From: Marinomonas colpomeniae
GTDB taxonomy: Bacteria > Pseudomonadota > Gammaproteobacteria > Pseudomonadales > Marinomonadaceae
NCBI RefSeq assembly: GCF_014803385.1
Contig: NZ_JACYFC010000003.1
Coordinates: forward strand, 310,001 to 374,000
Direction: 5' to 3'
Length of the DNA stretch: 64,000 nt
Shown here: one piece after another, positions 4,712 to 6,694 of the stretch
Numbering within the stretch: position 1 is the first letter of the stretch
How the letters are laid out: each line of letters starts with the position of its first letter
Translations under genes and position numbers: made by a program
Notes under the pieces: model-generated
Told to the model about the DNA's origin: nothing
The model's input: the letters and a program-made list of their open reading frames with translations, nothing else
Database searches by the model: none

Positions 4712-5090
4712 GGCTTTACTCTGATGAAGCAAAGGGTCGAACCCCTTTTCCTCCAACATACTTCCAGAGACAACAAACATTCATGGAAAAGGGCTTTGAC
4801 CCTGACTCTGTTGGAATATGGAGCAAGGCAAACATCACCGCTCGACGTAACTATTCTATATCGCCGTTTGACCTCGCTTTTGATGTTCACCTTACTCCCA
4901 CCAACTACATTACTTGACACTATCGATTGAGCTCGCTTTGCCTTTAAAAACTATATAGACATATAGTTTATTTTTTCACTCGTTCTATTTTTGCGCATTT
5001 AGCCATTTTTAGTAACTTCATCTTGAACGTTTGCACTGGCAGAAATCCGAAAAGCGTTTTAGTATCAATGAATAAAGATTTTCATAGTAG
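4712..5090. other. gene-poor stretch before the cassette array
   Basis: There is no convincing gene here. Short reading frames on both strands lack ribosome binding sites and recognisable motifs. Two weak hairpins are visible: AAAGGG/CCCTTT at 4731-4748 just after the previous gene, and a perfect AAACTATAT/ATATAGTTT inverted repeat at 4948-4969 with a 4-nt loop followed by a T-rich run, which could be a weak terminator. Nothing else is evident. Confidence 0.4.
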
Positions 5091-5148
5091 AAATAACGCG
5101 CTGTGGATAGAAAGAATAACGCGCATGCGCACTATTAAACTGTTATGT
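5091..5148 (+). other. degenerate attC or half-site at the left edge of the cassette array
   Basis: GTTATGT at 5142-5148 is identical to the R' box of the full attC downstream, and the 12-bp string TGTTATGTGACT is shared exactly (5141-5152 and 6119-6130). It is preceded by ATTAAAC, similar to the TTAAAAC L' region of the intact site. AAATAAC at 5091-5097 could be a poor R'' partner, which would make a 58-bp site, but the interior does not form a clean stem. I see two direct copies of AATAACGCGC (5092-5101 and 5115-5124) and the palindrome GCGCATGCGC (5121-5130). It marks the left boundary of cassette 1. It could also be a decayed attI, but no integrase is present here. Confidence 0.5.
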
Positions 5149-5170
5149 GACTTAATCGGAGTTCAGAGGC

Positions 5171-6019
5171 TTGCTTGATATTCCTAAACGTATAGAAGTA
5201 ATTCAATCTCTATTGCGAGAAAATACAAGAGAAAGTTTAACTTACGCGGCTCTTGAAGGAAGATTAACAATTGAGTATTTATGTTATGAACGCTTTAAGC
5301 TTTCGTATTCATACCTTTCTATTGAAGATCTTAAAAATTGGCAACCAAAACATGTTGTACAACAGATATCCGAAGAGATTAATGAAAGTGTTAACAAAGG
5401 TTTTACGTTATCTATATCAACTGAACCGCTAAGTGGAAAATCACCTACTAATAAAGAAGAATACGAATCAATTAATTACATTCCAATCGGTAGCCAATCT
5501 GCAATAAATTTGAATAAGTTACACAGGTTTTGGCACGGGCTTTCAAATGTAGCCCTTCACATACCTGTTCCGACTATTGACTCTGGTGATATTAATATTT
5601 ACGGAGACAAGGAAAAAATAATAAAAAAAATAACAGCTTTTCTTTATTATTTGTCAGAATTAAAAGGTGAAAATTTACTAATGGGTGGTTCATTAGGAAA
5701 AGAGTTTTCTTTCAACTGTTGCGCTTGCGAAACTTTAATTAAAAAACCAGTTAAGCTGCTAACTTCCCATGTCGTTGCAAACTGTATTAACCCAAAGTGT
5801 AATGAAAGTTATCTTATTGAACCTGAAAAAAACAATGATCATGAAATCACACGACGCATTATTAAGTTTTCATGCCTAGATTGTAAAAAGGATCTAGACA
5901 TACCTTCAAACGTATTTAAAGGTCTTAAATTTGAGCAACAATTAAATATATGTTGCGGGGAATGTCAATCATCTCTAACAGTGATTATGAGACCTTTAGT
6001 TAAAGGTGGTTCAGGTTAA
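5171..6019 (+). CDS. hypothetical integron-cassette protein with two CxxC pairs
   Basis: I do not recognise this 282-residue protein. Residues 1-160 look helical, with no membrane segment. The C-terminal third has cysteine pairs at NCCACETL, CINPKC, FSCLDCKK and NICCGECQ, a spacing that suggests two zinc-ribbon-like modules of two Cys pairs each. Zinc binding is an inference. The start is TTG 5171, preceded by AGAGG and located 23 nt after the GTTATGT box; no upstream ATG exists in frame. The gene fills almost the whole interval between two attC boundaries (cassette 1, about 5143-6120), as expected for a gene cassette. Its AT-rich composition differs from the flanking genes. Confidence 0.65.
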   Translation: MLDIPKRIEVIQSLLRENTRESLTYAALEGRLTIEYLCYERFKLSYSYLSIEDLKNWQPKHVVQQISEEINESVNKGFTLSISTEPLSGKSPTNKEEYESINYIPIGSQSAINLNKLHRFWHGLSNVALHIPVPTIDSGDINIYGDKEKIIKKITAFLYYLSELKGENLLMGGSLGKEFSFNCCACETLIKKPVKLLTSHVVANCINPKCNESYLIEPEKNNDHEITRRIIKFSCLDCKKDLDIPSNVFKGLKFEQQLNICCGECQSSLTVIMRPLVKGGSG

Positions 6020-6024
6020 CAATT

Positions 6025-6126
6025 ACATAACAAGAGTTTTCAAGACGGACAAATTACAGTTGGCTTTTTGTTCGTGCCTAACTTATTTTAGTCAACTGTA
6101 ATTTGTCGCTTAAAACGGTGTTATGT
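6025..6126 (+). other. integron attC recombination site
   Basis: This 102-bp site has all the parts of an attC. R'' ACATAAC (6025-6031) is the exact reverse complement of R' GTTATGT (6120-6126). L'' GTTTTCAAG (6036-6044) pairs with L' CTTAAAAC (6109-6116) except for one bulged base at 6041, matching the extrahelical base that gives attC sites their orientation. Inside is a perfect 15-bp stem (6048-6062 with 6093-6107) around a 30-nt variable loop. It begins 5 bp after the stop codon of the cassette 1 gene. Recombination would occur after G6120. The architecture is read directly from the sequence. Confidence 0.88.
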
Positions 6127-6142
6127 GACTATAGGGAAAATT

Positions 6143-6601
6143 ATGGAAGTGTTGAAAACCGCAACATGGGCAAGGGCATTTGAGGCAGCCTCTGAAATTG
6201 CTGTTAGGTTATTTGGTATATTTGTAGTTTTTCTTGGGTTTGATTTTTTGCTAGAGCTACTGAATGCATCAAGTAGTAGCCAAGATCTTTTAATTAGTAT
6301 GTTGCTGTTGCCTGCACTTTATATTCTAAAAGACTCTTATATTGTATTTGAACCCTTTACTGTCAGGGCTGAGTTTTACGACGATAAAATTTCAGTTTAT
6401 CGAGGTATCGCTCCAAGAGTAAAAGATACATTAGAGTTTAAAAACTCTGAGAACATAGAAATAATTACTAGTGTTTTAGGGCATTTTTGTAGCTACTCGA
6501 CCGTAAGGTTGTATTCGCCAGGTGGGTACGTCGAAATTCCTTATGTCTTCGGGCCTGAAGACGTTGTGTCAAAAGTTGAAAAAGCGAGAATCGGTACATA
6601 A
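6143..6601 (+). CDS. hypothetical small membrane protein in an integron cassette
   Basis: This 152-residue protein starts at ATG 6143, chosen because an ATAGGGA ribosome binding site precedes it; a GTG at 6125 would lie inside the attC R' box. Residues about 16-35 and 45-65 are two hydrophobic segments (AVRLFGIFVVFLGFDFLLEL and LLISMLLLPALYIL), followed by a soluble, strand-rich domain of about 80 residues (VRAEFYDDKISVYRG onward) that resembles bacterial PH-like domains found after paired TMs. That assignment is tentative. The gene fills cassette 2 (about 6121-6688) and its stop codon overlaps the next R'' box. Function unknown. Confidence 0.6.
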   Translation: MEVLKTATWARAFEAASEIAVRLFGIFVVFLGFDFLLELLNASSSSQDLLISMLLLPALYILKDSYIVFEPFTVRAEFYDDKISVYRGIAPRVKDTLEFKNSENIEIITSVLGHFCSYSTVRLYSPGGYVEIPYVFGPEDVVSKVEKARIGT

Positions 6602-6694
6602 CAAAGGCATCAACGCACGACTAATAAAGCTTGGCTTGGTTAGTACCTCACAATTTTAGCCAACTATTTCTGTCTGCTTAAGCGGGCGTTTAAA
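6596..6694 (+). other. degraded terminal attC site
   Basis: ACATAAC at 6596-6602 repeats the R'' box of the intact attC and overlaps the TAA of the cassette 2 gene. About 70 bp further, GCTTAAGCGGGCGTTTA (6676-6692) resembles the 3' end of Vibrio-type attC repeats, but the R' core reads GTTTAAA instead of GTTATGT, so it no longer pairs with R''. An internal TTGGCT/AGCCAA pairing (about 6641-6646 and 6657-6662) remains. I read it as the last attC of the array, decayed at its R' box, and probably a poor recombination substrate. Confidence 0.5.

Follow-up and report, generated by a model that had tools for sequence, protein, structure and literature searches.

An integrase-less mini-integron with its own attI site in Marinomonas colpomeniae, one of some 13 arrays headed by attI in the genome

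CALINs (clusters of attC sites lacking an integrase) are commonly regarded as integron wrecks or stray insertions. The question raised by a short cassette array in a 64,000-nucleotide stretch of the Marinomonas colpomeniae genome (hereafter the window, meaning the whole stretch analysed) is whether it is such a plain CALIN, as the original prediction had it, or an integron platform with an attI of its own. The locus has features of both: it shares with complete integrons an attI and attC cassettes in a single orientation, and lacks intI; it shares with CALINs the presence of at least two attC sites and the absence of an integron integrase nearby. We conclude that it is an intI-less mini-integron with the order attI, cassette, attC, cassette, attC, rather than a plain CALIN. 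The two cassettes, the real attC and the missing integrase of the original prediction stand, while the attI at the head had been overlooked.

All parts of the array lie on the plus strand. The attI segment (4960–5145) ends in the core CGCATGCGCACTATTAAACTGTTA (5122–5145), with the crossover at G5142|T5143. Cassette 1 extends from this crossover to that of attC1 (5143–6120) and carries an open reading frame of 282 codons with a TTG start (5171–6019), which stops 5 bp short of attC1 (6025–6126; crossover 6120|6121). Cassette 2 (6121–6688), delimited by box positions and by the covariance-model attC, carries a frame of 158 codons read from GTG 6125 (6125–6601; alternative start, ATG 6143), which ends inside the R'' box of attC2 (6596–6694; R' box GTTTAAA; crossover 6688|6689), the final site of the array. 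Both frames therefore fit between the boundaries, as predicted originally. Upstream of the attI, an inverted repeat AGGGTCGAACCCCTTTTCC / GGAAAAGGGCTTTGACCCT (4733–4803, no strand) was spotted by eye; a similar hairpin is also found upstream of orphan attI in other species (L213, L214, L219), an association only.

The attC sites were assessed with a covariance model (R1) built from 16 seed attC-like sites of other loci, six from the same genome (including L046) and ten foreign; the window sites and their 92% look-alike in L022 were excluded from the seeds, some of which were picked by eye. In the whole 64 kb the model, whose E-values are rough, matched two sites only, both on the plus strand: attC1 (6025–6126; 58.9 bits, E = 5.6e-14) and attC2 (6596–6693; 27.3 bits, E = 4e-5). 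Thus, the site at 6025–6126 is accepted as an attC, and its anatomy is as originally described, with R'' ACATAAC and R' GTTATGT exactly complementary, one bulged base in the L arms and a perfect inner stem of 15 bp. The R'' box at 6596–6602, noted earlier as a repeated box, proved to be the start of an entire, though weaker, attC.

The bottom strand of 6025–6126 folds as DNA at -21.3 kcal/mol (z = -5.1; 1 of 200 shuffles equal), and the top strand reached z = -5.8, with none of 200 shuffles as good. For attC2 alone, folding was no better than that of the shuffles (z = 0.41), and we regard it as a weak site. A chance hairpin at attC1 is ruled out by the covariance model. A crude box-and-stem scan missed attC1 in its first form, with 11-bp L arms; the loosened form, which served for seed collection only, gave 6 background matches at score 12 across four shuffled strands, and at score 13 retained attC1 alone on the two strands of the window (shuffled control, 1 in 4 strands). 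An Rfam search of the window, among whose families no attC family was listed, gave no attC match. The same window contains an nqrA-Marinomonas RNA (RF03035; 46640–46771, 129 bits).

What stands at the head of the array decides between the two alternatives. The GTTATGT at 5142–5148 had been taken for a matching R' box of an attC. It comes after AACGCGCATGCGCACTATTAAACT, which is found repeatedly across the genome, and the 24 bases ending at 5145 fit the attI consensus of the genus in all but one position (23 of 24). Furthermore, about 180 bp (4960–5142) share homology with the spacer between intI and attI in complete integrons of Marinomonas; in these integrons of relatives the same segment is situated between the divergent intI and the first cassette, and by our reading a LexA-type box CTGT-N8-ACAG immediately precedes the intI start. 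Judged by these similarities, the box is an attI core rather than an attC box, and the segment is an attI. The attI in the window is a short allele. Some 105 bp of the common form, located between two AACGCGCATGC-like repeats, are absent in 5 of 59 attI copies (window 4960–5145, L052, L120, L124, L192). The conservation of the core is 0.78–0.79, compared to as much as 0.87 for some upstream blocks, so conservation alone is no proof of use.

If a plain CALIN had arisen by insertion of cassettes by IntI at a random genomic attG site, no attI would be involved. A GTT with few further sequence needs suffices for such insertion, according to the relevant passages of two studies (PMC12901181, PMC12444791), and the absence of a local intI agrees with this scenario. 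The homology of the 180 bp preceding cassette 1 to the intI-attI spacer, together with the core match, makes it extremely improbable as an account of the locus, and at the window itself attG insertion is ruled out, the junction being attI-homologous.

The array is not the only one of its kind in the genome. When 521 bases of the locus at C9:538412, comprising a remnant of intI and the spacer, were used as a BLAST query, the genome gave 16 matches, where 13 attI ends could be placed (the window, L022, L023, L042, L043, L044, L045, L046, L047, L048 with two, L051 and L052); L049 and L050 contain upstream pieces only and no attI end. Eight of the 13 are within two mismatches of the core pattern, and several copies are degenerate. 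An attC follows on the same strand within 3.5 kb for all attI except that of L044 (12 of 13). Behind L045 the attC hit is weak (E = 0.056), and a single attC follows the pair of attI in L048. The genome does contain further attC elsewhere and the covariance model accepts the window sites, so the tests proposed for the original prediction did not refute it. Because some 13 arrays in this genome start with an attI, the one in the window is not a solitary CALIN, nor did cassettes simply insert at a random attG site.

The protein of cassette 1 (282 aa) was matched by neither Pfam (E 0.1) nor PADLOC (E 0.001); in another Marinomonas (G032, L191), a homologue with 37% identity occupies the first cassette position after an orphan attI. 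The cassette 2 protein (158 aa) matched a bacterial PH domain at 16.6 bits, under the Pfam cut-off of 22. Elsewhere in the same genome (contig C9), GajA and GajB of the Gabija system immediately follow the degenerate orphan attI (L044:3921-7780), with no attC hit behind, and an Eco29kI-type endonuclease with a C5 methylase forms the first cassette after an orphan attI with an intI remnant (L051:5908-7754).

The absence of an integrase, noted originally for the locus, holds for the genome. Over the whole assembly (99.99% complete), the TIGR02249 profile produced four partial matches, the best scoring 48 bits against a cut-off of 265, and hence no intI above the family cut-off. Two of the four are N-terminal scraps of about 40 codons adjoining the attI copies L051 and L052. 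Since no intI is left in this genome, the window array is probably frozen at present. A Marinomonas IntI from elsewhere in the genus shows, among the matches listed, 66.5% identity to integrases of Shewanella plasmids and 62% to IntI2.

Across the genus, matches to the attI segment (E 0.001) occur in 46 of 48 Marinomonas genomes, with counts per genome from at least 0 to at least 18, which are lower bounds, 13 candidates per genome having been scored. The core is present with at most two mismatches in 40 of the 48 (reversed control, 0). An exact-pattern scan of genome contigs recovered 20 loci, all in Marinomonas, and with up to three mismatches the pattern was absent from all 368 sampled gammaproteobacterial genomes outside the genus, a sample that may lack Shewanella. 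In the neighbourhood of fabV, a gene present in 47 of 48 genomes and used here as a relatedness ranking, no core-pattern attI was observed within 1.5 kb at any of the 30 loci examined. Several copies of attI on one strand, few kb apart, that is, internal attI, are found in L120 (G040:C1:3604901-3619000), L121 (G011:C37) and L124 (G040).

The attC hits are ordered relative to attI: 133 of 135 are on the same strand and at most 12 kb downstream, a zone that makes up 29% of the searched positions. The hits include the 16 model seeds and the loci were preselected for attI, so this tests order and strand and is not a random genome sample. One of the two exceptional attC is 12.7 kb downstream; the other is in L207, where the attI was found by the segment search and missed by the core finder. 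Of the 59 listed attI copies, including the intI-adjacent ones, 55 have an attC within 3.5 kb.

We consider it likely that the locus is a satellite mini-integron, devoid of an integrase, whose orphan attI is a landing site used in trans. IntI made at another locus would insert cassettes at the G|TT of the orphan attI, and the same trans-acting IntI would remove them at attC. The claim about the window is one of anatomy, whereas the claim of use in trans is drawn from relatives: in the search for an empty site at the window's own locus, no close relative was found, the right-flank matches being of 66–75% identity and scattered, and the orthologous flanks distant or non-colinear. There are 20 intI above the cut-off in 18 of 48 genomes. 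Among the 46 genomes that match the attI segment, 28 have no such intI, M. colpomeniae being one of them; many of these are drafts, and the count speaks against use in trans.

One competing explanation is decay of ordinary integrons. If each orphan had lost its adjacent intI independently, differences in cassette content between relatives would predate the loss, and remnants of intI would be found near attI, as indeed three copies of the same genome (L051, L052, L042) still have sequence of the intI side or remnants some 40 codons long. Vice versa, if the orphan sites are served in trans, cassettes would differ between relatives at sites where both have been devoid of a local intI, with the differences confined between attI and attC.

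The latter is what we observe for the orthologous loci L215 (G043, probably M. spartinae CECT 8886) and L217 (G044, probably strain USM8). Their left flanks are 94.1% identical over 2794 bp and the right ones 92.6% over 7525 bp. The left homology ends at the attI crossover (3279|3280 and 3019|3020, respectively) and returns at the last attC crossover (3851|3852 and 4490|4491; TTAGAAGGAGAGACATGG / TTGAAGGAGAGACATGG), both points of resumption falling inside model attC (sites in L215, 3738-3857; in L217, 3614-3715 and 4425-4496). The intervening 572 bp in L215 and 1471 bp in L217, holding one and two cassettes, have no match to each other better than E 0.35, and neither contig has a TIGR02249 match at E 1e-8. 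Such sharp boundaries at attI and attC are the typical product of IntI. An intI above the cut-off is present elsewhere in the genome G043. Two details count against use in trans: G044 has no such intI, and the attI crossover in L217 reads ATT, with A in place of the G of GTT.

The same tendency is seen in a second pair, L190 (G032) and L196 (G012, probably M. foliarum CECT 7731), with flanks of 93.2% and 95.7% identity, attI 79.3% alike over 305 bp and unrelated cassettes; the right homology returns about 20 bp beyond the crossover of the last attC, which was recognised by eye only. An intI is present at another place in both genomes, but in G012 it is interrupted by a stop codon, which counts against use in trans. 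Three further same-place pairs with different content (L189/L194, L201/L205, L192/L198) give a less clear picture than L215/L217 and were left out of the proof. In L215/L217 and L190/L196 neither member has a local intI, the upstream sequence is shared and the cassettes differ, hence the loss of intI would be older than the split of the species, contrary to independent decay. The clean attI and attC ends, in pairs without a local intI on either side, argue for action in trans, and thus orphan attI sites are probably served in trans, whether by gain of cassettes, by loss or by both.

Comparison of close relatives suggests that the integrase gene also changes its place. At one locus with shared flanks (92.6% over 5062 bp; 85–87% on the other side), G032 has intI-attI and G012 an orphan attI, which again is compatible with decay; a G012 block of intI-attI, 88.6% alike, is located elsewhere, and that of G031 (81% alike) has no flank of 300 bp or more in common with G032 or G012 in the stretches compared. 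The three are near relatives by fabV (96–97%), with intI-attI blocks that share no flanks in these stretches. Read from such alignments, the integrase gene is one that relocates or gets lost. The orphans, in turn, appear to have a history of their own. One 5' junction is common to 11 of 59 attI copies from five genomes and is absent, by eye, from the listed complete integrons; copies in G040 have another junction in common, also seen by eye. Since shared 5' junctions have no counterpart in complete integrons, they point to multiplication of orphans as orphans and disfavour decay, which we consider unlikely as a general account.

If orphans do multiply, a wider reading would be that of a distributed integron, where attI is dispersed and multiplies, so that one genome may have as many as a dozen short landing sites, or more; a single IntI, in its turn subject to gain, loss and relocation, would serve them all in trans. 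Each promoter-sized attI segment would set the first cassette nearby, defence genes among these. We hold this reading, including its latter part, as tentative, a little short of an even chance. The attI might travel as the 3' end of a cassette or through recombination between the surrounding repeats. For the first route there is one example by inspection, a viral contig (IMGVR_UViG_3300046449_000435, L147:1732-2594) where a cassette ends in a short piece of attI, not in a normal attC. As this cassette resembles the delta-attI cassettes described in the pertinent part of PMC12901181, attI may be able to travel with cassettes, at least in principle.

For the second route, a repeat of about 276 bp, present in low copy number, often lies upstream of attI, with 21 matches in G032 (e.g. 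G032:C1:1420621-1422097) and 10 in the M. colpomeniae genome (G000); several copies are beside attI and others away from known attI. The repeats near attI could also suggest that the attI is carried by a transposon-like or repeat-driven unit with the cassettes as passengers, integron recombination being secondary. In agreement with this, the mini-integron L188 of G032 is situated between opposite-orientation copies of the repeat, while G012 has neither attI nor cassettes there, and G043 and G044 have, at different loci, repeated copies of a stretch of about 720 bp that has the attI core as its end. However, no transposase or target duplication was recognised by eye at the borders, and the repeat is not confined to attI. 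At the L188 locus the attI is present in G032 and also in G001, with none in G012 and none seen in G031; the G001 copy makes a loss in G012 as likely as a gain in G032. A transposon-like unit seems to us a somewhat doubtful explanation.

Arrays of this type may easily be overlooked. IntegronFinder defines a CALIN as at least two attC without intI and limits its attI search to class 1 integrons, as stated in the part of PMC9024848 that deals with these rules. By this rule the window array would be filed as a CALIN, and attI-headed CALINs in general would escape notice. The Marinomonas arrays resemble CALINs in having at least two attC, cassettes and no intI nearby, and differ in starting with a full attI, in being many per genome and in deriving all from one attI type. 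In the open-licence literature, among the matches listed, we found no paper title joining Marinomonas and integrons and no occurrence of the phrase "multiple attI", and the attI string was found in PMC9892861 only.

That study is the closest precedent. As far as its relevant passages go, a CALIN of the Shewanella prophage M16-3 is likewise an integrase-less array with its own attI at the head; this attI, printed as AAACGCGCATGCGCACTAATAAAATGTT, differs by eye from the Marinomonas consensus in 1 of 28 bases (PMC9892861). An attI-headed array without integrase thus has a precedent, although the M16-3 case described there is one prophage with a single CALIN and, next to it, one complete integron, whereas the Marinomonas copies are scattered over the chromosomes of the genus, mostly with no intI in the genome. 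Other Shewanella CALINs and SALINs are similar in that attC cassettes are scattered away from intI, in genomes with and without intI, and different in that an attI at the head is not mentioned in the corresponding sections of PMC9229058. Delta-attI-type cassettes of class 1 and 2 integrons share the occurrence of attI copies or pieces in arrays, which IntI1 is able to recombine, attI x attI included; according to the same part of PMC12901181, these are clinical integrons and the attI takes the place of a cassette's attC, whereas in Marinomonas a whole attI heads separate chromosomal arrays. With sedentary chromosomal integrons the arrays share similar attC across unrelated cassettes, and defence genes among the cassettes; the textbook form has one platform with a local intI, and Marinomonas many short platforms.

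If the orphan attI sites do work in trans, a single integrase could feed many chromosomal positions, which would change the understanding of the reach of cassettes, of their expression and of the origin of CALINs.
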